In this document: in pieces, positions 3,242 to 23,872 of the stretch
How the letters are laid out: each line of letters starts with the position of its first letter
Numbering within the stretch: position 1 is the stretch's first letter
Assembly (NCBI RefSeq): GCF_018614525.1
Contig: NZ_JAGGOL010000009.1
Coordinates: 1 to 64,000, forward strand
DNA length: 64,000 nucleotides
Direction of reading: 5' to 3'
DNA from: Streptomyces sp. ISL-11
GTDB taxonomy: Bacteria; Actinomycetota; Actinomycetes; Streptomycetales; Streptomycetaceae
The notes under the pieces: model-generated
What the model was told of the DNA's origin: nothing
The model's input: only the letters and a program-made list of their open reading frames with translations
The model's database searches: none
Position numbers and translations under genes: made by a program

Positions 3242-4240
3242 GTGGACACCTTTTCTCTCGTCGTGACCATCGCGGTCGCGCTCGGCTTCACCTATACCAA
3301 CGGCTTCCACGACTCCGCGAACGCCATCGCGACCTCGGTCTCCACGCGGGCGCTGACCCCGCGCGCGGCCCTCGCGATGGCGGCGGTGATGAACCTCGCG
3401 GGTGCCTTCCTCGGCAGCGGGGTCGCCAAGACCGTCAGCAAGGGTCTGATCGAGACGCCGGTGGGCGACAAGGGGATGGGCATCCTCTTCGCGGCCCTGG
3501 TCGGCGCGATCGCCTGGAACCTGATCACCTGGTACTACGGCCTGCCGTCGTCCTCCTCGCATGCCCTGTTCGGCGGCATGGTGGGCGCGGCACTCGCCGG
3601 CGGCACGACCGTCATCTGGTCGGGCGTCGTCGAGAAGGTCGTCATCCCGATGTTCCTCTCGCCGTTCGTCGGCCTGATCATCGGCTATCTGGTGATGGTC
3701 GTGATCATGTGGATGTTCCGCAGGGCCAACCCGCACAAGGCCAAGCGGGGCTTCCGGATCGCCCAGACGGTGTCCGCCGCCGGCATGGCGCTCGGCCACG
3801 GCCTGCAGGACGCACAGAAGACCATGGGCATCGTGGTGATGGCCCTGGTCATCGGTGATGTGCAGGACAAGGACGCGGCGATCCCGCTCTGGGTCAAGCT
3901 GGCCTGTGCGATCACGCTCTCGCTCGGTACGTACGCCGGTGGCTGGCGGATCATGCGGACGCTCGGCCGCCGCATCATCGAGCTGGACCCGCCGCAGGGC
4001 TTCGCCGCCGAGACGACGGCCGCCTCGGTCATGTACACGGCGTCGTTCATGTTCCACGCGCCGATCTCCACCACGCACGTCATCACCTCCGCGATCATGG
4101 GTGTCGGCTCCACGAAGGGCTCCCGCGCGGTGCGCTGGGGCGTCGCGAAGAACATCGTGATGGGCTGGTTCATCACCATGCCGGCCGCGGCGCTGGTCGC
4201 CGCGTTCAGCTACTGGATCGTGAACCTGGCGTTCGGCTAG
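3242..4240 (+). CDS. pitH1: Low-affinity inorganic phosphate transporter Pit
   Basis: This 332-residue polytopic protein belongs to the PiT family (metal-phosphate/H+ symport). The duplicated PiT signature is visible: TNGFHDSANAIATSVSTRAL near residues 19-38, and the second half-site around MFHAPISTTHVITSAIMGVG. About ten membrane segments are apparent. GTG 3242 follows the DUF47 gene directly. It converges on pstB across a strong terminator, so low- and high-affinity phosphate uptake genes sit back to back, as in the S. coelicolor pitH1-pst locus. Confidence 0.92.
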   Translation: MDTFSLVVTIAVALGFTYTNGFHDSANAIATSVSTRALTPRAALAMAAVMNLAGAFLGSGVAKTVSKGLIETPVGDKGMGILFAALVGAIAWNLITWYYGLPSSSSHALFGGMVGAALAGGTTVIWSGVVEKVVIPMFLSPFVGLIIGYLVMVVIMWMFRRANPHKAKRGFRIAQTVSAAGMALGHGLQDAQKTMGIVVMALVIGDVQDKDAAIPLWVKLACAITLSLGTYAGGWRIMRTLGRRIIELDPPQGFAAETTAASVMYTASFMFHAPISTTHVITSAIMGVGSTKGSRAVRWGVAKNIVMGWFITMPAAALVAAFSYWIVNLAFG

Positions 4241-4266
4241 CGGCCGTACGCACCCGGAAGACGGAC

Positions 4267-4301
4267 GGGCCCGCCCCCTGGTACGAACAGGGGGCGGGCC
4301 C
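4267..4301. terminator. Bidirectional terminator between pit and pstB
   Basis: A perfect 14-bp stem, GGGCCCGCCCCCTG (4267-4280) with CAGGGGGCGGGCCC (4288-4301), encloses a 7-nt loop. It sits between the convergent pit and pstB stop codons, so it probably terminates both. Confidence 0.88.
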
Positions 4302-4351
4302 TTCGCCTTGCGGCGGCACCGCCATGCAGCGCCGCAAGGCGGTATGGGGGT

Positions 4352-5131
4352 TTACCCGAAGCGGCCCGAGATGTAGTCCTCGGTGGCCTGCACGGACGGG
4401 TTGGAGAAGATCCGTTCCGTGTCGTCGATCTCGACCAGCTTGCCCGGCTGGCCGACGCCCGCCAGGTTGAAGAAGGCCGTACGGTCCGACACGCGCGCGG
4501 CCTGCTGCATGTTGTGCGTGACGATGACGATCGTGAAGCGTTCCTTCAGCTCGCCGATCAGGTCCTCGATGGCCAGGGTGGAGATCGGGTCGAGGGCCGA
4601 GCAGGGCTCGTCCATCAGCAGGACCTGCGGCTCCACCGCGATCGCCCGGGCTATGCACAGCCGCTGCTGCTGACCGCCGGAGAGGCCCGCTCCCGGCTTG
4701 TTCAGCCGGTCCTTGACCTCCTTCCAGAGGTTGGCGCCCTTGAGGGACTTCTCGACGACGCCGTCCAGCTCGGACTTGCGGAGCCGGCCGCCGTTGAGGC
4801 GGATGCCGGCGGCCACGTTCTCGTAGATCGACATGGTCGGGAAGGGGTTCGGCCGCTGGAAGACCATGCCGACCGTGCGGCGCACGGAGACGGGGTCCAC
4901 GCCGGCGCCGTAGAGGTTCTCGTCGTCCAGCATCACCTTGCCCTCGACGCGGCCGCCGGGGGTGACCTCGTGCATGCGGTTCAGGGTGCGCAGGAAGGTG
5001 GACTTGCCGCAGCCGGAGGGGCCGATGAAGGCGGTCACGGAGCGGGGCTCGACGGTCATCGAGATGTCCTCGATGGCCTTGTGGGTGCCGTAGTAGGCGT
5101 TGAGGCCGCCGACATCGATGCGCTTGGCCAT
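4352..5131 (-). CDS. pstB: Phosphate ABC transporter ATP-binding protein PstB
   Basis: This 259-residue ATPase energises the PstSCAB importer at the inner face of the membrane. It has Walker [10 protein letters not shown] at residues 37-45, the PstB-type Q-loop segment [18 protein letters not shown], signature LSGGQQQR, Walker [14 protein letters not shown] and the H-loop [14 protein letters not shown]. The start is ATG 5131, about 40 bp after pstA. It is the last gene of the leftward pstSCAB operon, and transcription should end in the hairpin at 4267-4301. Confidence 0.95.
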
Positions 5132-5169
5132 GGAAATCACTGCTTCTTTCGTAAATCCCGTGACCGCGG

Positions 5170-6255
5170 TCAGCGGCCGGCGGTCTGCGGGGCCTTCCAG
5201 CGGGCGATGCCGCGGGCCACCAGGTTGAGGATCATGACGAAGGCGATGAGGACGAGTGCCGCCGCCCAGGCGCGGTCGTAGCTGGCCTCGTTGCCGGCCG
5301 CCCACTGCTCGTAGATGTAGTACGGCAGGGACGACTGGGCTCCGTCGAAGGGGTTGTTGTTGATCACCTGGGAGCCGAAGACCAGGAGGACGATGGGGGC
5401 GCTCTCGCCCGCGATGCGGGCGACGGCGAGCGTCACACCGGTCGCGATGCCGCCGATGGCGGTCGGGAGGACCACCTTCAGGATCGTGCGCCACTTGGGC
5501 ACGCCGAGGGCGAGGGACGCCTCGCGGAGCTCGTTCGGCACCAGCTTCAGCATCTCTTCGGTGGAGCGGACCACCACCGGCATCATCAGGATCGCCAGGG
5601 CCATCGCCCCGGCGAAGCCGGAGTAGCCGAAGTCCAGCATCAGGATCCAGAAGCTGAGGATGAACAGACCCGCCACGATCGACGGGATGCCCGTCATGAC
5701 GTCCACGAAGAACGTGACGACCTTGGCGAGCCGGCCGCGCCCGTACTCCACGAGGTAGATCGCGGTCAGCAGGCCGACCGGGGCCGCGATGGCGGTGGCG
5801 ATGCCGACCTGCTCCAGGGTGCCGATGATCGCGTGGTAGACGCCGCCACCGGGCTGGATGGTCAGGACACCGGCCATCGAGTGGGAGAGGAAGGCGCCGT
5901 CGAGGACCTTCGCGCCGCGCGAGACCGTCTCCCAGCCGAGGGAGACCAGCGGTACGACGGCCAGCAGGAAGCAGATCCACACCAGGCTGGTGGCCAGGCG
6001 GTCCTTGGCCTGCCGGCGGCCCTCGATACGGGCGGCGAGCGCGTACGTCCCGCCGACGAAGAGCACCGCGGCGATCAGGCCCCACTGGATCCGGCTGCTC
6101 AGGCCCGCCCCGGCGCCGATGCCGACGCCCACGGCGGCCGCGCCGAGCGCGACGGCGGGGGTGGCCCAGCGCGGCAGCCGGGGCTGGCGCAGGGTGGTGC
6201 GGGGCAGCGGCGCGCTGTCGGCGACCAGCGGCTTTTCCATGGTCACGTCGCTCAT
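5170..6255 (-). CDS. pstA: Phosphate ABC transporter permease PstA
   Basis: The 361-residue permease has an extended N-terminus with two extra hydrophobic segments before the usual PstA core, common in actinobacterial PstA. The cytoplasmic EAA loop that docks to PstB reads [21 protein letters not shown]-like near residue 255. At least six membrane segments are visible. Its ATG overlaps the pstC stop by 4 bp (6252-6255), so the two subunits are translationally coupled. Confidence 0.94.
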
Positions 6256-14415: not shown

Positions 14416-15405
14416 ATGAAGATCATCTCCTTCTTTAACCATAAGGGTGGCGTCGGAAAGACCACCCTCGTCTATAACATCGGCATCGCTTTGGCGAAAA
14501 ACAAGCGTGTGCTCTTCATTGACGCTGACGCGCAGGCCAACCTGACAAGTGCCGCCCTGCCGGTAGCTGATGTTGAGACATTGTTCAATTCGGGCAGGAC
14601 GATCTATTCGTGCCTTCGACCTGTAGTCGAGGGGTCAGGTCCCCTGAAAGTGATTCGCCCCGTACAGGTCAGGGATTCCGCTTGGATCCTTCCGGGGGAC
14701 ATTCGGTTGAGCGATTATGAGGAATTCGCCCCCACTGGATGGACCGAAGCTCTCGCGGGACAACCTCGCGGATTCCAGGTGAGTACGGCCATCTATCGCC
14801 TCATTAGAGATATCGCTTCCCAGGTATCGGCCGATTACGTCTTCGTCGATCTTGGCCCGAATGTCGGAGCCCTTAACCGAAATGTCATCATCGGCTCGAC
14901 TGGGTTCGTTGTCCCCCTTGCCCCGGACTTGTTCTCCTTGACGGCCCTCCCGAGCGTTGGAAAGAGCGTTGCCAACTGGATCGATGAGTGGGGTACGGCA
15001 AAGAGGGCAGCAGAAAGAAAGGATCTATCCTTTGATTTCGAGCTTCCGCCTGGACTGCCAAGCCCGCTCGGCTACGTAAGTCAGCAATTCACTGTATATC
15101 GAGACCAGCCAGCCGAAGCATATAAGCACTGGAACGAACGAATGCCCGCCGCTTACCAGTCGGGAATTGTGGAATCCTTGGCTAGGGTGGGATCACTCGC
15201 TCCTTCATCTGCTGCATCGATTGGAGAAGTCTCCAACCTTTCGAGCTTGGTTCCCATTGCTCAACGAACGCATAAAGCAGTGTTTGAGCTGAACGGGAGC
15301 GAGGCGCGGGGTGCGCATTACACTCGCGCGCGTAACGCCGTCAATCTCTTCAGTTCCCTCGCCGATGAGATTTCTTCGCGTGCTGACGAAATTGCAGGCA
15401 GGTAG
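14416..15405 (+). CDS. ParA/MinD-type ATPase, cargo of the Tn7-like element
   Basis: This 329-residue protein has the deviant Walker A motif HKGGVGKTT (signature Lys 10 and Lys 15), switch DADAQANLT near residues 36-44 and Walker B DYVFVDLGPN. It is longer than a partition ParA, with an insert between the switch regions (LRPVVEGSGPLKVI...) and a C-terminal helical extension; no ParB gene or parS-like array is nearby. Its stop is 2 bp before the PIN-like gene, so the pair is translationally coupled. G+C and codon use are clearly lower than in the flanking core genes. The pairing suggests a two-component conflict module rather than plasmid partition. Confidence 0.82.
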   Translation: MKIISFFNHKGGVGKTTLVYNIGIALAKNKRVLFIDADAQANLTSAALPVADVETLFNSGRTIYSCLRPVVEGSGPLKVIRPVQVRDSAWILPGDIRLSDYEEFAPTGWTEALAGQPRGFQVSTAIYRLIRDIASQVSADYVFVDLGPNVGALNRNVIIGSTGFVVPLAPDLFSLTALPSVGKSVANWIDEWGTAKRAAERKDLSFDFELPPGLPSPLGYVSQQFTVYRDQPAEAYKHWNERMPAAYQSGIVESLARVGSLAPSSAASIGEVSNLSSLVPIAQRTHKAVFELNGSEARGAHYTRARNAVNLFSSLADEISSRADEIAGR

Positions 15406-15407
15406 AG

Positions 15408-16400
15408 ATGCTGATTGCCCTCGACACGAACCTGCTACCCAGGCAGGGGAAGGTTCAGAGCGTTGCCATCGCCACACTACTTCGCGTTGCCCCCGCTCTT
15501 AATGCAACCGTCGCCATACCTCGCGTTGTCCTCGCTGAATCAATTAATGCCAGACGGCAAGAGGCGCAAGAGGCGATCGATCAACATAGCGCGGCGGTAT
15601 CGAACCTTGCGAAGTACTGTGAAGTGGATTCGTACTACGTTCCTTCGCTGGACGTGATCGTAGGTGAATGGAGAGAGGGGCTGGAGGCTTCATTTGCCAT
15701 TCTTGAACTGGATGGAGAGGATGCCGTTGAGGCTCTGGAACGCGAGGCCCTGAGGAGGAAGCCGGCCAAATCAAATGGCACGGGCGCTCGCGATTCGGCA
15801 ATTTGGCTGTGCGTCAAGAGGGAGCACTTCAAGCAGGTCGGCGACACGCATTTTGCCTCAGGCAATACGGACGACTTTGCGGCCTCAAAGCGTGATCACT
15901 CGTTGCATCCAGATCTCGCTGAGGAACTAGGTGAACGACTCTCTGCTTTTCACTATCACACGAGTGTCGAGTCCGTAATCGCGGCTCTCTGCTCGCGCAC
16001 GAAGGTCTCGATTACTACAGAATCATTCCCGGATGACGTACTTCTGTCAATCATCGACCAGGTCGTCGGACATGAAGAGTTGAATAAGTTCACCGAGTTT
16101 TCTGGTCGAAGCCCCGAAGATTTCGGCCCGATTGAGTCTCTAGAGTTCACTGAAGTCAACGTTCGCGGTGCATACTCCGCCGCAGGGATTACCGTAGGCT
16201 TTCTTTCCGCCTCATTTGAGATGCCGTTCGCCCCCGAAGTGCATGAAACGCTCGGAACCTCGGCGTCGGGCAGGCTGGGGGGCTGGTTTGCGCTATCTAG
16301 CGACGGAGAAGTAGTAGAATTTGACGTGACCCTGTTGAGGAGCCTGTCTTACGTGAGGCCCTGGGAAGCGGAAGATGAAACGCTCGACGACCTAAACTGA
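15408..16400 (+). CDS. PIN-like (DUF4935-type) nuclease, partner of the ParA-type ATPase
   Basis: The 330-residue product begins MLIALDTN, the first acidic motif of PIN-fold RNases. AESINARRQ supplies a conserved Glu, TGARDSAIWLCV matches the central Asp motif of DUF4935 PIN proteins, and SGNTDDFA matches the final Asp motif. The C-terminal 130 residues form a separate unknown domain. PIN proteins usually cleave RNA as toxins or effectors. No antitoxin-sized gene is present, so the coupled ATPase upstream may control it. It shares the low-GC character of its partner. Confidence 0.75.
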   Translation: MLIALDTNLLPRQGKVQSVAIATLLRVAPALNATVAIPRVVLAESINARRQEAQEAIDQHSAAVSNLAKYCEVDSYYVPSLDVIVGEWREGLEASFAILELDGEDAVEALEREALRRKPAKSNGTGARDSAIWLCVKREHFKQVGDTHFASGNTDDFAASKRDHSLHPDLAEELGERLSAFHYHTSVESVIAALCSRTKVSITTESFPDDVLLSIIDQVVGHEELNKFTEFSGRSPEDFGPIESLEFTEVNVRGAYSAAGITVGFLSASFEMPFAPEVHETLGTSASGRLGGWFALSSDGEVVEFDVTLLRSLSYVRPWEAEDETLDDLN

Positions 16401-16433: not shown

Positions 16434-16764
16434 TCAGCTGTCCATGAACAGACCGGTTCCGGCGAGACATCCGTCGACCAGGTGGGGCCGGTACTGGATC
16501 TGCTTGAGGCTGCGCTTCACGGCCCTGGCCATCTGATCGAGGTTCACTGCGGCGAGGTTGCCGATGGCCCGCTTGACCAGGGCCCAGATGCCTTCCTAGG
16601 GGTTGAGGTCCGGCGCGTAGGAAGGCATCTGGAAGACAGTCAGCCAGTCGCCGTTCGCCTCGGTGAACGCTCTCATCTGCGGCATCAGGTGAGCGCGCAG
16701 GTTGTCCCAGACAACCCGGACACCGGCTCCAGTCGGGAGTCCAACCACTTCGGCCCCTCGATTT
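16434..16764 (-). pseudogene. 3' fragment of an IS630-family transposase
   Basis: Reading leftwards, VRVVWDNLRAHLMPQMRAF, then DWLTVFQMPSYAPDLNP, a TAG stop, and EGIWALVKRAIGNLAA ending GTGLFMDS match the C-terminal DDE region of IS630 transposases. The stop between DLNP and EGIW replaces the usual Gln/Glu codon, and the N-terminal half is absent. The fragment probably inserted into the end of the tniQ remnant. It converges on the PIN-like gene. Confidence 0.75.
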
Positions 16765-18135
16765 TCAGGCTGGTGATCGCCGAACTGCCTCTGCCACGAC
16801 AACCGCCGGAACCTCCCCGACCTGGGCGGGGAGCATTCGGCGCATCCGCCCTGAGAGGCGCGGAGTGTTCGCCAGAGTACGGACGTGGTGCCTGGCCAGC
16901 CCGGGGCGAGCCAGGAACTTGCTGGCACGGCTGGCAATGGCGTTCGGGGATCTGGCATCGAGGAACTCCGAGGCGAGGAGCATCAGACAGCCCAGAGCGT
17001 CGGAGCGGAAGGGCGGGATGTCGCATTCGGCATAGTGACCGCGGAGGAGGGGGGCGAGATAGTCCCGCTCGGCCGCTTGCCCTTCGCATTCGCGCCAGCA
17101 GAGATAGGGTTCGACACTCCGGCGGTGAGCAGAGCCGACCAGGGAGTGGGGAAACGCTGCCTGGATGAGGCGGGCAACCACCCGCAGGTCGGTGAAGTAG
17201 GTCGGGGCGCTTACCCGACGGCCAAGGCTCTGAGGCCGAGGATGGGTACCGTCCAAGATCTGGTCCAGTTGGGTTTGCAGCGTGATCAGAAGGGGCGTGG
17301 AGCGTCCGGCAACCACCACAGCCCGGGAGACGTCCACTCGGGCACCGCAGTAGACGCCGTCGCGCCATCGGCCGCTTCGGCAGGTGGCGGGGTGTACGGG
17401 CATTCCGTTGGGCGTGGGGATGAGTGTCGTCTGGTAGATCGGATGTCTGCCAGGCCCCGCCGTACCGCTCTTGCACTGGCGGATCAGCCGTTCCTTCGTA
17501 CGCATGGTTACCTTCGAGCGGTGCAGGCACTCCGCGTGCACGGCCTCAATGGCCTCCGCGAGCCGCTCGTCGACCTCTCTCTCCCGCCCGGATGCCATCA
17601 GCTGACGGCCGTATCCGCGCAGCCCCTCCGGGTGGACACGGCACTCGTCGGCGATCCGGCGCAGGGTTCGTTCACTGACATACTCCAGGCCCAGCAGAGC
17701 GGTTTCTTCTGAGGCGAGCCGGCGCAGTTCACCCACCTTGGTGCGGAAGCGCTCCAGGCGGTTCGTCGTTCTCGGGTCGTACTCCGGACGCGGCTCACCC
17801 GGCGCCGGACAACCGGGATCCCCGCTGCGGAACCCGCAGTCCGCCTCCAGCGCGTGCGCTACCCGCAGCCGCATCCGCTCGAAGTCCGCGTCATCGAGGT
17901 CTTCCACGCGCGGGCTCTGGCCCGGGCGCCCGCTCCTCGGCATCCGGACGGCATCCAGCAGCTGCCCCGCTGTGCACGCCCACTGCCGCCCAGTCTCGCT
18001 CACCAGCACTACCGTCCCGGTGGCAGGGCTCAGCTCCTTCACCACCCAGACGCCGTCATCGAGCAACAGCTTGGTTCCCGGCATCAGTTCCAACTGCTGG
18101 GCATGCCCGTTCACGCTCGCCTGCCCGAACGACAA
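16765..18135 (-). pseudogene. Deletion-fused TnsB N-terminus / TniQ C-terminus
   Basis: A single 456-codon frame joins two proteins. Residues 1 to about 215 match the N-terminal part of Streptomyces TnsB-like transposases (MPGTKLLLDDGVWVVKEL, EYDPRTTNRLERF, YVSERTLRRIADE, VHAECLHRSKVTMRTKERLI) and stop before the DDE catalytic core. From about residue 230 the sequence resembles the C-terminal half of TniQ (TCRSGRWRDGVYCGARVDV, APTYFTDLRVVARLI). The simplest explanation is an in-frame deletion removing the TnsB catalytic core, TnsC and the TniQ N-terminus. It could still be translated, but it lacks transposase activity. Its start overlaps the tnsA end. Confidence 0.7.
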
Positions 18136-19006
18136 ACAATCGAGGCATCACGCAACGGGCTGGCCAAGTCGACCCCGAGACGCCGCTCCCACAACAGACG
18201 CAGCGCATGCGCCCGCGCCATCACCGGCAGCTCGACCGACTCAACGAGCTCCCTGAACGGCACAGGCTTCTCTGCCGCATCCCACAATTGCCGCTCGATT
18301 CCATACGGGTCCTCCAGCGGACGCCGCTGGGCCGAGATCGTCTCCAGACCGGTGATCACGTTCTCCTGCCACCCGGTCACCACGTCGTAGCGCCCAAGCC
18401 GAGGCAAAGGCCGCCTCCCGCGCGGCAGCAAAACTCTCAACGTCCTCCGGCTTGATGAGCCGGCGTGGCCGGACGTCGATCAGCCAGCAGCCGTCCCGAA
18501 GGAGCACCAAGAAGTCCGGGGTGTGCTGACGGCTGCGGACCAACCCAACGAACCGCAGCCGGAACGGCTGCGGCAACACGTCCCGGATCCGGCCTGCGAA
18601 GTCGAGCGCGAGCAGGAAACGCTGCTCTTCCAGGCTCGAACCCATGATGGCGACCGGTGGAGAGCATGTACTGAAGCCCCGGCCTATGCCGCTGACGCGC
18701 CCGCCAGCTGAACTGCCGCACCGGCTGCGCTCGTGCCAGCGGGACCGTACCGAGATGGGGCAGGCTGCACACCACCTTCGTACCGGCGATGCGCCACTCC
18801 GCCGACCACCGGTCGCTCGTCGCCAGCCCGGAGCACTCTGCGGTGAAGCCCTCGAAGAGATCACCCAGCACGCAGGACTGCGACCACAGCCGACCGCCGT
18901 CGTGCACTGGGACAGAGCCGTTCGTGTGCATGGTTCCAGAGCGCCAGAACTGGACCCGCCCGTCACCAGCCCCCACCGAGATGCCACCCGTACAGGGCTG
19001 AAGCAC
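18111..19006 (-). pseudogene. TnsA-like endonuclease with two frameshifts
   Basis: Three frames read in sequence give one TnsA-like protein: QPVRQFSWRARQRHRPGL...STGRHHGFE, then SSLEEQRFLLALDFAGRI..QPFRLRF..HTPDFLVLLRDGCWLIDVRP, then GLETISAQRRPLEDPYG...ARAHALRLLWERRLGVDL. The frame changes near 18640 and again near 18400-18440. The E...PDF...DVRP pattern is the TnsA nuclease motif. TnsA makes the 5' cuts in Tn7-type cut-and-paste transposition; here it is inactivated. It begins about 20 bp inside the right-end repeat region. Confidence 0.72.
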
Positions 19007-19024
19007 CTTGTTTCGGCTGTGCTA

Positions 19025-19078
19025 CCGAGCCTGGCCAACTAGATTGGAAATTTCGGCCATCCGCCGTGCTCAGTCACA
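19025..19078 (-). repeat. Right terminal inverted repeat of the Tn7-like element
   Basis: The outermost 14 bp, CGTGCTCAGTCACA (19065-19078), are the exact reverse complement of 13704-13717. Inward, GGCCATC, TTGGAAA and TGGCCAAC match the left arm in inverted order with small gaps. Confidence 0.78.
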
Positions 19079-19215
19079 GCGGAGGGGGTCTGTTGTGCCT
19101 CGTCACGCTAACTGTCGCGTTTGCACGACAACCGGCGTCGGCCTTGGTCGCCATGCCGGAGCCACCCCCATTCCGAGCGGTGCCAACTGTCAGACCTCAC
19201 CGCTAGCGTGTGGAC

Positions 19216-19761
19216 ATGGAAGCGGCTGACCAGGCGGACAAAACGAAGCGCCGGAAGGCGATTGAAACCGAGTTCAGACGACTCGAAGAGAGCGCGATGT
19301 ACAGCGCTCAAATGCAGTTCGAACAGACGAAGCAGTGGAGGAGCGTCAACCTGGCCTTGGGATTGCCTGCCACTACCCTCGCCGCAGTGGCGGGCACCAC
19401 AGCGCTCGTTGAATCGACCGGTCGCGTCGCCGCCGGCATCCTGGCCCTTGTCTCGGCAGGCTTTGGAGCCATCCTGACGACGGTCAACGCCTCGCACCGG
19501 ATGAATCAGGCCGCAGCGGCAGCGAACGCCTACCTGGAGATTCAGACTGCCGCCCGCCAGGCGCGGGAGATCGACCTCATCACCTGGTCGCCCGACGACG
19601 CCCGTGCCGCTCTGGCTGAGCTGACCGCTCGACGTGACGAGCAGAACAAGACGGCAGAACCACCGAACCGCCGCTCCTACCGCAAGGCGAAGGCCAACAT
19701 TCAGTCGGGCGGCCAGTCCTACGCCGTCGACGAGGCACACTCACACCAGAACAGCAGGTAA
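19216..19761 (+). CDS. SLATT-domain two-TM effector (CBASS-like)
   Basis: The 181-residue product (an in-frame GTG lies at 19210) has a helical N-terminus (FRRLEESAMYSAQMQFEQTKQW) followed by two membrane segments (RSVNLALGLPATTLAAVAGTTAL and VAAGILALVSAGFGAILTTV), then HRMNQAAAAANAYLEIQ. This fits the SLATT domain, a 2TM effector found beside CD-NTases and SLOG sensors. Such effectors are thought to form membrane pores on sensing a nucleotide signal, killing the infected cell. The stop lies 4 bp before the CD-NTase start, so the two form an operon. Confidence 0.76.
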   Translation: MEAADQADKTKRRKAIETEFRRLEESAMYSAQMQFEQTKQWRSVNLALGLPATTLAAVAGTTALVESTGRVAAGILALVSAGFGAILTTVNASHRMNQAAAAANAYLEIQTAARQAREIDLITWSPDDARAALAELTARRDEQNKTAEPPNRRSYRKAKANIQSGGQSYAVDEAHSHQNSR

Positions 19762-19765
19762 TCCA

Positions 19766-20806
19766 ATGCCGCGATCCGTACCCGAGGGGTTCGACGTCTT
19801 CCTGTCCCGACTCGTCCCGCTGGCATCACAGCGGGAAGCAGCAGCCAAGCATCGGTCCCGAGTCGAGTCCTCGCTCAGCAACGCGCTCGGCATCCATCTC
19901 TTTCGGGAGATCGGCTCATCGTTCAGTCATGGAACCGGCGTACGAGACCACTGCGATGTCGACCTGTTGGTCAGCATCAAAGGAGAACGCCCCAACAGCC
20001 CCGACACTGCGCTTGGGCGGGTGAAGTCGGCCCTACAGACTAGTTTCCCGTACACCGAGGTCGCCATCCGCAAGCCGACCGTCGTAGTCAAGTTCGCTCA
20101 GGGGATGGAGACCTGGGAGGTCCTCCCCGGGTTCATCACCTCCCGCGGTAGCCAGAATATGCCGGTATATGACATCCCGGGCGCCGCAGGCGGCTGGATG
20201 GATACCGCACCGACCGCGCACTTGGCCTACGTCAACGAAATCAACAACCTGCCTGGCATCGCAGGGGGAGCCAAGAAACTGGCTCGCCTGGCCAAGGCGT
20301 GGAAGTACTACAACGAGGTGCCCATGTCCTCGTTCTATCTGGAGATGAGGGCAGCGCGATACATGTCGACACAGTCACCATTCGTGCCCGTATGGGATGT
20401 ATGCGGCTTTTTTGAGCATCTGCACTCGATCCAGTTGGCGGCGATGAACGACCCCAAGGGGAACGCCGGGAGGTTCTCCGCATACTCGGCGCCAGCCGAA
20501 GGCGCAGAGGCCCTTTCCAAGTTGGCCAACGCTGCCAGCCGTGCTCGGAGGGCGCTCGCCGCCCACAACAGCAGCGACGCGGCAACCGCGTTCCACAACC
20601 TTGATCTTCTGTTCGGGGGGGAGATTCCCCTCACGCTGACCAGTACCACCAGCCTGCGTGCGACCGACCCTGGCTTCTTCACTTCCTGCTCATCGAGGTG
20701 CCAACCTGGCCGCAGGGAGGCGACACGCCGCCAGGCAACTCGCCTGCAGTACTGTGATCATCACCCTGCGGGGCGGCATATCTGTGTGCTACCCCTGACG
20801 TCATGA
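19766..20806 (+). CDS. CD-NTase (SMODS-type nucleotide cyclase), CBASS-like
   Basis: The 346-residue nucleotidyltransferase shows GSSFSHGTGVRDHCDVDLLV (GSS at 50-52; catalytic Asp 64 and Asp 66). WEVLPGF supplies the third acidic position as Glu rather than the usual Asp. The SMODS C-terminal helical domain follows (LARLAKAWKYYNEVPMSSFYLEM). It should make a cyclic oligonucleotide that activates the SLATT protein upstream. The last 60 residues (after LLFGGEIP) look unlike coding sequence and end in an ATGA overlap with the next gene; a late frameshift is possible. No Cap2/Cap3 or HORMA/TRIP13 genes are present, so this is a minimal type. Confidence 0.8.
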   Translation: MPRSVPEGFDVFLSRLVPLASQREAAAKHRSRVESSLSNALGIHLFREIGSSFSHGTGVRDHCDVDLLVSIKGERPNSPDTALGRVKSALQTSFPYTEVAIRKPTVVVKFAQGMETWEVLPGFITSRGSQNMPVYDIPGAAGGWMDTAPTAHLAYVNEINNLPGIAGGAKKLARLAKAWKYYNEVPMSSFYLEMRAARYMSTQSPFVPVWDVCGFFEHLHSIQLAAMNDPKGNAGRFSAYSAPAEGAEALSKLANAASRARRALAAHNSSDAATAFHNLDLLFGGEIPLTLTSTTSLRATDPGFFTSCSSRCQPGRREATRRQATRLQYCDHHPAGRHICVLPLTS

Positions 20807-21723
20807 GCTCTGATGTGAACGACAGGGTCCGCCCTGGAGACCTGCCGGCGATGGCCTTCACGATTCTCTCGGAGGCGTTCTTCGATGATCGGGGACGTTC
20901 GGTTTCCTTCCATCTGCGGGACAAGCGAAACACCCAGGATGACCCGTTCGACGAGTACGTCACCGATCTGCTCCACGAGCAGTTGCCGGCGGAGGTCATC
21001 GTTCTCCGGGCAGATAAACCCTTGGTCAGCCCCGACGCTGTCATTGCGAGTCCAGAGGAGTACGAGCTCCTGAGGGCAGGTGGGGTCGACTACGACCCCG
21101 GAGCGATCTTCGGCCTCGAGGTCAAGAAGGTCGACCTGGGCAGGAACGGGAAGCCCGCCCGTTCCACGGGTCTCGACTACAACAGCACCCCGCCATGCGC
21201 AACCGTCCGTGTGTATGCCGAGGACGGCAACGAGATCCGCATCCCTGGTTTCTACCTGTTTGTCGCTCTTGAGGGAAACGAAGAGGGCGGCATGGTGCAA
21301 GTGCATTCGATGGCTCTGGTGGCCGGTGCCGCCCTTAATAAAGATGTGGATCTCTACGACCGCATCACGGGAACGCGAACCAAGCAGATTGGACTCGGTA
21401 CTTACGGTGACGGAGCAAACCGGGTACGGCCGATGCTGCTCTTCTCCAACCCGCTCGGCTGGGAATGGATGCTCGGCGCGGCAACGCTCATCAGCGAGCG
21501 CAACGACCTTGCAGACTACCAGTCTCTTGCTCACGTACGCGACATGACCCGCACCGTCTCGCCAGGAGTGTTCGAGCTCTTCCACTGTTACCGGCTTGCC
21601 AAACTTTCTCCCCCGGTCGAGGAGACCGCGCACGACCCCTTCCCGCAGCCATCGAAGCGAAAGGAGGAGACAGCTCAGCGGGGCCGGTTCGGGATCGATC
21701 TGCGAACACTCACCCTCGGTTAG
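20803..21723 (+). CDS. PD-(D/E)xK-like restriction endonuclease (probable)
   Basis: The 306-residue protein starts with the ATGA overlap on the CD-NTase stop. It has a candidate nuclease core: VSPDAVIASP, then GAIFGLEVKKVDL (D...ExK spacing) and GLDYNSTPP. It lacks transmembrane segments and a helicase domain. The gene is convergent with, and overlaps by 14 bp, the large DNA methyltransferase gene, the expected partner of a type II system. Assignment rests on the motif and the neighbour, not on a recognised close family; its coupling to CBASS genes is unusual. Confidence 0.6.
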   Translation: MSSDVNDRVRPGDLPAMAFTILSEAFFDDRGRSVSFHLRDKRNTQDDPFDEYVTDLLHEQLPAEVIVLRADKPLVSPDAVIASPEEYELLRAGGVDYDPGAIFGLEVKKVDLGRNGKPARSTGLDYNSTPPCATVRVYAEDGNEIRIPGFYLFVALEGNEEGGMVQVHSMALVAGAALNKDVDLYDRITGTRTKQIGLGTYGDGANRVRPMLLFSNPLGWEWMLGAATLISERNDLADYQSLAHVRDMTRTVSPGVFELFHCYRLAKLSPPVEETAHDPFPQPSKRKEETAQRGRFGIDLRTLTLG

Positions 21724-23872
21724 AGCGCGCGTCGAGAGCGGCGGCGGCGGCAGCAACCGCCTCTCCGGCTTCCGCCGCCAGCTCCTCAACAGACAGCGAG
21801 TTTCCGGGCACGGTATGCAGCGCGAGGACAGAGCCCCTAACCACGGATTCGACGTCCGCATAACCGACCTTAACGCCAGCCTCCTTGCACTCACGCAGCG
21901 CGATAATGGCACGCTCCCTCACCGCCTCTACCGAGCACGCCTCGGACCCCATGTGTCCGATCAGCCGGCACACCACAATCGAATCCAGGTTTGACGGATC
22001 GGCCGCACTTGACTTGATGGCGCTCGTGCTCATTTCTGCCTTGACAGGCTGTACTGCGGTAATGACCAATCCCGCGTTCTCCAATGCCTTGACCAGCTCA
22101 ACCCATCCCGCAATCCGAGCCTGATGGAAGGTGAACGCAAGCAGACCATTCGGCTTAAGGAGTCGGGCACACTCCTTCCATACGGCGGCAATGGCATGGC
22201 CAAACTCGGCGGGATCTGCAGATTGGACTTCCTCTGCATGGCGTGTGGTGATGACGTCTGCCGGATAGCTCTCGAATGGCCGGAGCTGTCGAAGCCATAC
22301 ATGGAAGAAGTCGGCGAGTTCGCTGTAGTGGACGTTATCCATGAACGGGGGGTCAGTGATGACCAGATCTACTGACGCATCTGGGAGATCGAAGGATGCC
22401 GATGATCCATAGTGAACGTACGCACTCGTACTCCCCTGCTCGAAGGACTCAGCGTCACCGATCTCTAGCGAAAGGGGCTGCGATAGCCCAAAGACGCGCT
22501 CCGAGTTATCACCCACGGGCACGAGATCATGCGGAGCACGCTTGTACTCCCACGCGCGGATGATGCGAGACTGATAGAGCGTCGAGAAGGCGCCAGAGGA
22601 TGCGGGAGTGCCCCAGGGATGCGCTTCAAGCGGAGTCCGTTCGGGCTTTAGGGCATGGTTGGAGAACATGTGCCGGACGGCACCAGTCCCTTCCCCCTTG
22701 AACGAGCAGAATAGGTTATTGAATTCCAGTACGCCAGAGAAGAGTGCAGCCAGGGCTTCGCGCTCCGGTCCGGGTTCAAGGTCGCGGATAGCCTTGCCAA
22801 GCAACCCAAGGCTGTAGAGCTGACGAGCGTTGAAGAACTGGCGCCACTCGCGATAGTTCCAGCGGATCGCCTGTCGGGTGTTATGGCCGTCATCCAATGT
22901 GCCGACTGGCAGTACGAGCTCCTTGCCTCGCTCCTCAAGCAGCTTCTCAGCCTTCGCGTAAAGCGCGAGGTCGAAGTCGTCGATGGGTTCGTACAGCCGC
23001 GATCCGTCTGCAGCAAGCACTTGTTTCGCGTACATGCGGAGCCGCGGAGGCTGCCCCCCCAAAGCGTCGATGACTTTCGCCGAGTGGCCCTGGGAACAAG
23101 TCATGGTCGCGCGGTTGACCGGGCCAGCGAGGTCTGAGACTTGGCTGCAGGAAGAACATGTCAGCTGCTTATCTTTCACCACATCGACGATTGCAATGGC
23201 ATGACAGTGCGGACACGTCGCCTTGCTTGCCGGATACTTCTTCGGATAGGCGTGTTGAGCAAAGACGTACCGACTGAATAGCTCCACGGGCGGCGCGTCC
23301 GGAGGGCATTGGGGACACTGGGCGAGGGCGACCCAGAAGTAGTAGAGGACGGGCCGACCACGCTTGTCCCTGTGCAACTGATCGATTTCGGAGCGGACCT
23401 GAGACTCCACTTGCTTAAATGCACGGTCCAGTCGGGCACGATCCCAAGGAGCCAGCGCCTGCCGCTGAACCAGCGTCGCCACCGGGTTAATGTCCCTGCC
23501 AATCACTCGCGCCCCGAGCTTTGCTGCCTCTGCGAGCGTCGTCCCGGAGCCGGCAAAGGGGTCGCAGACAGTAAGACCATCGAGCCGAAGCGCATTGCTG
23601 TAGCACTCGATGGCATCTTGCTCATCCTGCGCAACAGCTGCGGCTAGGATCCCACGGAAGACAGAGCCAAGCCGTTGCGCCCACCACTTGTGAGTGTGCG
23701 TGGCCGGTCGGTGCACCTCCTTGCGCCAGGACTCCCGCTCGGCCGCAGCCGACACGATCCCGGCAGGGAAAGCCGTCTCCAGCGCTGCCACCGCAGGGAT
23801 CGAACTCCGAACGATCGACGTCGGGCCGTCTTCCGTAGCGCTGAAGATGCTTTCCTGCTCGAAGACCGTCAT
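21710..23872 (-). CDS. Zinc-ribbon DNA methyltransferase (alpha-type motif order)
   Basis: The 720-residue protein starts at ATG 23872 behind ggaggtatga. Motif I (DPFAGSGTTLAEAAKLGARVIGRD) lies near residue 105. A central region holds several CxxC pairs (CPQC, CPHCH, CSSCS), probably zinc ribbons for target recognition, and motif IV TDPPFMDNVHYSEL lies near residue 510. The N-terminal HKWWAQRLGSVFRGIL segment resembles DUF1156-like methyltransferases found in defence loci. DPPF with this motif order suggests exocyclic amino (N6-adenine or N4-cytosine) methylation. It is the probable protective partner of the convergent nuclease. Confidence 0.83.
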   Translation of the reverse strand: MTVFEQESIFSATEDGPTSIVRSSIPAVAALETAFPAGIVSAAAERESWRKEVHRPATHTHKWWAQRLGSVFRGILAAAVAQDEQDAIECYSNALRLDGLTVCDPFAGSGTTLAEAAKLGARVIGRDINPVATLVQRQALAPWDRARLDRAFKQVESQVRSEIDQLHRDKRGRPVLYYFWVALAQCPQCPPDAPPVELFSRYVFAQHAYPKKYPASKATCPHCHAIAIVDVVKDKQLTCSSCSQVSDLAGPVNRATMTCSQGHSAKVIDALGGQPPRLRMYAKQVLAADGSRLYEPIDDFDLALYAKAEKLLEERGKELVLPVGTLDDGHNTRQAIRWNYREWRQFFNARQLYSLGLLGKAIRDLEPGPEREALAALFSGVLEFNNLFCSFKGEGTGAVRHMFSNHALKPERTPLEAHPWGTPASSGAFSTLYQSRIIRAWEYKRAPHDLVPVGDNSERVFGLSQPLSLEIGDAESFEQGSTSAYVHYGSSASFDLPDASVDLVITDPPFMDNVHYSELADFFHVWLRQLRPFESYPADVITTRHAEEVQSADPAEFGHAIAAVWKECARLLKPNGLLAFTFHQARIAGWVELVKALENAGLVITAVQPVKAEMSTSAIKSSAADPSNLDSIVVCRLIGHMGSEACSVEAVRERAIIALRECKEAGVKVGYADVESVVRGSVLALHTVPGNSLSVEELAAEAGEAVAAAAAALDARSNRG

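Follow-up and report, generated by a model that had tools for sequence, protein, structure and literature searches.

What does a ParA-type ATPase do when its gene is followed at once by that of a PIN nuclease? The question is raised by a gene pair in a 64,000-nucleotide stretch of DNA from Streptomyces sp. ISL-11 (the window; the source genome is 6.67 Mb). The first gene (14416..15405, plus strand) encodes a 329-residue ATPase of the ParA (SIMIBI) type matching Pfam AAA_31/ParA at 84.5 bits, and the second (15408..16400, plus strand) a 330-residue PIN_12 nuclease (42.1 bits over residues 3-155), both scores lying over the Pfam cut-offs. A preliminary description of this locus had proposed an abortive-infection module in which the ATPase senses or gates the nuclease, and most of its anatomical observations were reproduced. 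The ORF list and the sequence both place 2 bp between the ParA stop codon and the PIN start, both frames are intact, and the genes have G+C contents of 0.552 and 0.553 respectively against 0.699 for the window. There is no ParB_N gene on the contig of the pair, the single ParB match of the genome lying on another contig, and inspection of the ORF list by eye recognised no small gene beside the pair.

The same description took the two genes to be the only intact ones in a decayed transposon, and this part stood less well. Decayed transposase remnants do lie downstream on the minus strand (16596-19040), including a DDE_3 fragment (16599-16958, minus strand; 29.1 bits against a Pfam cut-off of 28.6), presumably IS630-like, and a weak, below cut-off TnsA-like N-terminal match (18244-19038, minus strand). 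However, no element ends were identified, nothing marks the pair as the cargo of such an element, and an intact-looking CBASS-like operon begins 2.8 kb downstream of the pair, at 19210. PADLOC CBASS models identify its first two genes as a SLATT 2TM effector (19210-19761; E 1.5e-74) and a CD-NTase (about 19766-20806; E 2.7e-107). The third gene (20803-21723) overlaps the CD-NTase gene by 4 bp, has no match in Pfam, PADLOC or NCBIfam, and may be an undescribed CBASS accessory gene. Beside the operon lies a gene for a large DNA methylase (21710-23872, minus strand), distant kin of the DUF1156 antiphage-associated family, which scores 122 bits against a DUF1156-type NCBIfam model with a cut-off of 1000.

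The ATPase carries the deviant Walker A motif KGGVGKTT at residues 10-17 of the translation (14443..14466, plus strand). In a 42-row alignment it is a full-length member of its ParA clade, with K10, G11, G12, V13, K15 and T17 of the Walker A motif invariant, as are D36, D38, Q40 and D145. Its C-terminal region is specific to the clade. The structure model has a pLDDT of 93.8, and its top structural match in the PDB is 3pg5, followed by Soj/ParA proteins. Entry 3pg5 (DIP2308 of Corynebacterium diphtheriae, from structural genomics) aligns with the ParA profile over positions 1-326 (E 1.3e-74), alone near full length among the 60 PDB matches listed. DIP2308 has no assigned function. None of the PADLOC models fits the window ParA past the first 40 residues. 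We propose that this protein acts as a gate or antitoxin, or as a sensor.

In the second protein the PIN domain occupies about residues 1-190, and the remaining C-terminal part is without a Pfam match. Four acidic residues are invariant in all four close relatives, namely Asp6 (15423..15425), Glu44 (15537..15539), Asp129 (15792..15794) and, as a candidate fourth residue within an NxxDF motif, Asp156 (15873..15875), all on the plus strand. By analogy with PIN/VapC proteins the first of these, Asp6, would be catalytic, and Glu44, Asp129 and Asp156 would probably share in catalysis. Loss of the catalytic residues had been named beforehand as evidence against the proposal, and no such loss was seen. 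The structure model is of moderate confidence (pLDDT only 69.6). Its residues 2-189 resemble VapC toxins in predicted fold with Z up to 8.9, a value reached with 7vwo (rmsd 4.2 over 130 residues), and the best Foldseek match is likewise a VapC toxin (E 1.7e-3). The fold matches from VIA-align include no clear one to the C-terminal part, which is not evidence for a new fold, and none of the PADLOC models fits the PIN protein. We propose that the PIN_12 protein is a toxic effector.

A genome-contig scan with the PIN alignment (built on two peptide patterns, which relatives can escape) recovered three loci, one each from S. griseoviridis, S. eurythermus and S. achromogenes, and in all three ParA lies upstream of PIN. 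Across the tandems ParA is 85-87% and PIN 63-66% identical. Among 246 sampled genomes of the genus, PIN matches at E up to 1e-3 occurred in 23, the window's own included; close homologues (63-65%) were found in two besides the window, S. griseoviridis and S. eurythermus, both with ParA directly before them. The PIN branch is thus small, comprising four pairs, all in Streptomyces; counting that of the window, three of the 246 genomes carry one. In one of them, locus L034 from S. eurythermus, the first start codon chosen by the script for PIN falls 47 nt inside ParA, and the homologous ATG lies 7 nt past the ParA stop. The other two tandem loci, L033 and L035, have about 4.9 kb in common at 94% identity; they are near-copies and therefore not independent. 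Among the three divergent lineages pS is 0.71-0.87, with synonymous sites near-saturated, whereas pN is only 0.07-0.08 for ParA and 0.19-0.23 for PIN, which argues for purifying selection on both genes. When the flanks of the window, L034 and L033/L035 were compared by blastn, nothing but the pair was common to them. The pair has hence been inserted into, or moves between, these three contexts as a unit.

A ParB near the pair in intact relatives, or homologues found mostly apart, would also have spoken against the preliminary description. No ParB lies near the pair in any of three genomes; ParB_N was absent from the pair's contig in all three, and the one and two ParB matches of the two relatives lie on other contigs. 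The four close pairs all keep their genes together, but distant homologues are unlinked, with none of 20 distant PIN_12 relatives having a clade ParA within 1.5 kb. A PIN-anchored scan of the viral contigs gave no relative, and neither did a search of the phage collection; on plasmids 19 records held partial PIN matches, all under 60% identity.

The neighbours of the pair are partly of defence type. Directly before the pair in L033 lie genes for a C5 cytosine methylase and for a product that matches the family of the SacI restriction endonuclease at 118.5 bits, and L035 has the same two genes upstream of the pair, its DNA being 94% identical to that of L033. These SacI-type restriction-modification genes immediately precede the pair (L033 6648-8914; L035 6636-8902), near genes that we take to resemble an integrative conjugative element. 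In L034 no defence neighbour was noticed by eye, DUF1152 being the single neighbour scanned, and in the window the neighbour is the CBASS operon.

We then looked at the ATPase clade as a whole, which occurs on plasmids, in phages and prophages, and on chromosomes. Full-length relatives on plasmids and phages, found by tblastn with the window ParA, are about 27-35% identical to it. In phylum-wide samples the window ParA found relatives in at least 4 of 296 genomes with an E threshold of 1e-20 and in at least 5 of 396 with one of 1e-40, its own genome included in both; these are lower bounds, as the top few candidates per genome were scored. A profile of 13 clade ParAs run against 392 Streptomyces genomes gave 22 full-length matches of at least 254 bits, whereas the other ParA-family matches reached at most 121 bits and covered the first 200-240 profile positions. 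One intermediate match (L080, 175 bits) had half coverage. The E. coli genomes held no match to the DNA of the Salmonella ParA-SIR2 pair.

Regions hand-picked for diversity were opened from 14 of the 202 plasmid records and 4 of the 18 phage records with a ParA match. Annotated SIR2 partners are present in L037, L040 and L041 and an annotated HEPN partner in L038, overlapping ParA by 1-4 nt, and SIR2-like, HEPN-like and cyclase-like ORFs come after ParA in L051-L055 and L057. In phage Pf1 (L044, AY324828.1) an unannotated ORF (5019-5546) after the 'Soj-like' Orf317 matches RiboL-PSP-HEPN at 38.1 bits, and also PHROG 13503, of unknown function. Together with Orf317 this ORF gives Pf1, a classical filamentous phage, a ParA-HEPN pair of its own. 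No partner was found in L036, L039, L042, L043, L045, L050 and L056.

Several of these solo genes have settings of their own. In the P22-like phage ST160 (L043) an orphan clade ParA (3995-5068) is separated from the preceding c2 repressor gene by one small gene. The site after a phage c2 repressor is typical for accessory genes expressed in lysogeny. Further orphan clade ParAs are found in L050 and L153-L167. On an E. coli IncX1-type plasmid (L042, 4001-5065) a divergent solo clade ParA adjoins a ParA/ParG partition locus. Among the 60 plasmid ParA matches listed, 29 (H51-H79, 30.1% identity) look like this one IncX1-type gene and are seemingly solo. They form the largest group among the matches listed, of which L042, without a partner, is the sole member opened. 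The IncX1-type solo ParA seems to be common on enterobacterial plasmids.

In order to count partners we assembled 122 loci, the viral contigs contributing the best 80 of 272 ParA relatives. Six were dropped: L091 and L104 had no open ParA frame by script, L080 lacked the KGG motif in a truncated match, and L108, L112 and L155 lay at contig ends. (The contig of L104, frame-less in this forward scan, reappeared with SIR2 as L200.) With the window the remaining 116 loci make 117 rows, of which 85 were left once near-copies had been removed at 90% identity. A coupled downstream gene was present in 44 of the 85 rows thus selected and absent from 41. The 44 partners comprise 16 HEPN, 13 SIR2, 6 RelA/SpoT, 3 PIN, 3 cyclase-like, 1 PglZ and 2 unassigned proteins, and start between -47 and +19 nt from the ParA stop, within 8 nt in 38 of 44. 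Partner labels refer to downstream genes and were given by hand from translations, with BLAST clustering and, for representatives, Pfam and PADLOC as a check. A ParA was called solo when no credible gene started between -60 and +30 nt, so that partners upstream or farther away are still possible; both flanks were viewed for 11 loci (L088-L090, L092-L097, L036 and L116), and the Streptomyces loci L061-L079 had flanks of about 1.5 kb each. Counted as solo were L068, L069 and L071, whose ORFs (at -53, -4 and -4 nt) are spurious-looking G+C-rich frames that clustered with nothing, and L048, with an ORF 76 nt downstream that we take to be DUF4062-like.

Pfam scans of 20 partner representatives placed 2/2 SIR2_2, 3/3 RelA_SpoT and 10/11 HEPN_RiboL-PSP proteins over cut-off (L129 was below), and none of the 11 scanned HEPN partners passed the MAE_28990/18760 cut-off. 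L100 (4001-7293) is the single example of coupling to PglZ: ParA and its partner gene share 4 nt, and the partner fits a PADLOC PglZ model from end to end (E 1.9e-281), although it falls just under the Pfam cut-off. In L054, L123 and L146 ParA is followed by a protein of 223-236 aa with an FxDxLG(Y/F) motif, called cyclase-like by appearance only. No relevant Pfam family was matched by L054, L123 or the partner in L126.

On a maximum-likelihood tree of the ParA proteins, partner type required 9 changes, against a minimum of 7 and a shuffled mean of 40.6; none of 200 shufflings gave a number as low. Partner type therefore tracks ParA phylogeny. PIN, SIR2 and cyclase-like partners each form a single branch (support 100, 99 and 99 respectively) and HEPN needs two changes. 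RelA/SpoT appears in two places, one being the long branch L098 inside a nine-row set that holds the PIN branch. The tree was made by a quick method without bootstrap and has long branches at L042, L041, L054, L116, L140 and L098. The nearest non-PIN relative of the window ParA, L088 (49% identical), has no coupled downstream partner. As to co-occurrence, the same ATPase clade does pair with SIR2, HEPN, RelA/SpoT-like and PglZ proteins, but nearly half of the 85 members stand uncoupled. Collectively our data show that the pair is a real, mobile module under selection, and that its PIN protein is a new effector branch of a partner-swapping ATPase clade.

The search was also run from the partner side. 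In viral loci a clade ParA lies upstream of SIR2 in 15 of 15 cases, RelA/SpoT in 9 of 9 and HEPN in 13 of 14, hence 37 of 38 in total; 22 of these 38 contigs are shared with the forward scan, several are near-copies, and the queries were partners found beside ParA. Among the 16 contigs new to this search ParA is present in 15. In L194 and L212 ParA is cut by the contig end, and L202 has a partial ParA. All eight plasmid SIR2 records at E up to 1e-15, which include the query's own and three near-identical ones from Salmonella, carry ParA alongside. In Streptomyces the four HEPN homologues at E up to 2e-14 have a clade ParA, and none of 14 weaker homologues has one within 1.5 kb. The ATPase thus accompanies nearly every close partner, whereas it often has no partner itself.

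These data are consistent with an ATPase-gated toxin module of the toxin-antitoxin or abortive-infection type, a reading inferred from anatomy, phylogeny and context to which we give a probability of slightly under 0.6. The ATPase, encoded upstream, would be the earlier product, and one of its states, set by bound nucleotide or DNA, would keep the PIN nuclease inactive. A disturbance of ParA, such as a phage seizing the nucleoid or the nucleotide pools, or the action of a DNA-binding protein of the phage, would then free the nuclease or switch it on, so that it cuts RNA and halts growth ahead of phage multiplication. Under this model PIN would be an active, toxic RNase that ParA restrains rather than activates, and both the trigger and the phage as target are conjectural. 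The observed basis is a conserved mobile tandem with intact active-site residues, in a clade whose toxin-like partners are interchangeable and, when close, rarely ATPase-less. A functional tie between the two genes, as first suggested, is well supported by the conserved tandem moving as a unit and by the SIR2, HEPN, RelA/SpoT-like and PglZ partners of the same ATPase clade.

The ATPase might instead be an activator and sensor, the effector idling alone until it is switched on by ParA gathered on foreign DNA. Dimerisation with ATP and DNA binding are established properties of the ParA family, and tight coupling and partner swapping fit an activator equally well. Orphan activators would be useless, yet ParA stands alone in 41 of the 85 rows (the viral ones being the best 80 of 272), and close partners are rarely alone (ParA in 37 of 38 viral loci and 8 of 8 plasmid records). 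Mainly on this asymmetry, which is an indirect argument, we prefer an antitoxin-like gate and consider an activator unlikely.

Still less probable is a module for addiction or element stability, which would keep an integrative element, plasmid or prophage in place with no role against phage. Plasmids, phages and prophages do carry members, and others lie, by eye, near integrative-element-like genes. Against this, restriction-modification and CBASS systems are among the neighbours, and the PglZ, SIR2 and HEPN partners are of kinds typically seen in defence; addiction and defence are in any case not exclusive.

The prophage orphans could also be primary, being superinfection-exclusion or counter-defence ATPases to which toxins were added later in some lineages. 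The solo gene after c2 and one small gene in ST160 fits this order of events, as do the 41 solo rows of 85 (viral rows again the best 80 of 272); but the stability of partner-linked clades over large distances is left unexplained, and we regard it as distinctly doubtful. As 41 of the 85 clade ParAs, L088 included, lack a coupled downstream partner, the ATPase may nevertheless have a function of its own. That the pair is an ordinary ParABS-like partition ATPase that chances to precede an unrelated PIN gene is very improbable, since, although family databases label the protein ParA or 'ParA-like partition protein' and L042 adjoins partition genes, three of three genomes lack ParB near the pair, the 22 clade matches are full-length and reach at least 254 bits while other ParA-family proteins of the genus, the half-length match of 175 bits apart, stay at or below 121, and the tandem is kept in three unrelated contexts.

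The gated-toxin reading extends to the clade. The window pair has the arrangement of the ParA-clade effector modules, in which a toxin-like gene comes directly after a full-length clade ParA. We put at even odds that these modules, gated by ParA and serving immunity or addiction, form a large family as yet without a name, in which one ATPase clade serves at least five effector classes (PIN, SIR2, HEPN, RelA/SpoT-like, PglZ and perhaps cyclase-like) on plasmids, prophages and chromosomes of Actinomycetota, Pseudomonadota and Bacteroidota. If so, a DNA-moving ATPase family would have become a general-purpose switch for toxins of several unrelated kinds, and many phage 'ParA-like partition protein' genes would be defence gates. 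Filamentous phage Pf1, with Orf317 and its HEPN gene, would belong to the family, and orphan prophage ParAs could be antitoxins that disarm such modules. The annotation of many phage and plasmid 'partition' genes would change, that of classical phage Pf1 included. The same ATPase with different effectors would also offer a clean system for what a ParA-type switch senses in infection.

Compared with known systems, the pair resembles VapBC in that a PIN-fold nuclease, in predicted fold closest to VapC, is the second gene of a tight two-gene unit, and in that the conserved acidic residues are present in this putative toxin. It differs from VapBC in its partner, a 329-aa ATPase in place of a small DNA-binding antitoxin, and in a nuclease more than twice the length of the matched VapC chains. 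With ParABS it shares the ATPase fold and the deviant Walker A motif, but it has no nearby ParB, its ParA has a clade-specific C-terminal part, and the partner genes in the clade are toxin-like. In PARIS, Septu and similar defence pairs an ATPase controls a nuclease effector, the same general logic as proposed here. The ATPases of these pairs are, however, of the ABC/AAA type, unlike the SIMIBI/ParA-type ATPase of the window. The excerpt of PMC10440598 names such pairs and describes AAA ATPase antitoxins, and it does not name ParA. A segment of Propionibacterium acnes gained with defence genes holds parA genes without parB, according to part of PMC5379612. No ParA-PIN or ParA-SIR2 system is named in the excerpts of PMC9503650, PMC2701414, PMC5379612, PMC10440598 and PMC11578894, and no mention of ParA was found in that of PMC8195603. 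Neither the PIN version nor the multi-effector family was found in the open PMC literature (which leaves bioRxiv outside and includes few subscription papers). The claim that the system is undescribed holds to this extent for the PIN version, but the general arrangement was anticipated by Anantharaman et al. (2013; PMC3710099), who predicted a HEPN (MAE_18760)-ParA/Soj dyad to be a toxin-antitoxin system. Dyad and window pair alike have a ParA/Soj-type ATPase gene at the 5' side with an RNase-type gene directly after it, and in both the ATPase is the proposed antitoxin and the nuclease the proposed toxin. The partner in the window is PIN_12, whereas that of the 2013 dyad is HEPN of the MAE_18760 family, and the window pair is therefore a variant of the dyad rather than a member. 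A further difference is that SIR2, RelA/SpoT, PglZ and cyclase-like partners occur elsewhere in the clade of the window ParA.
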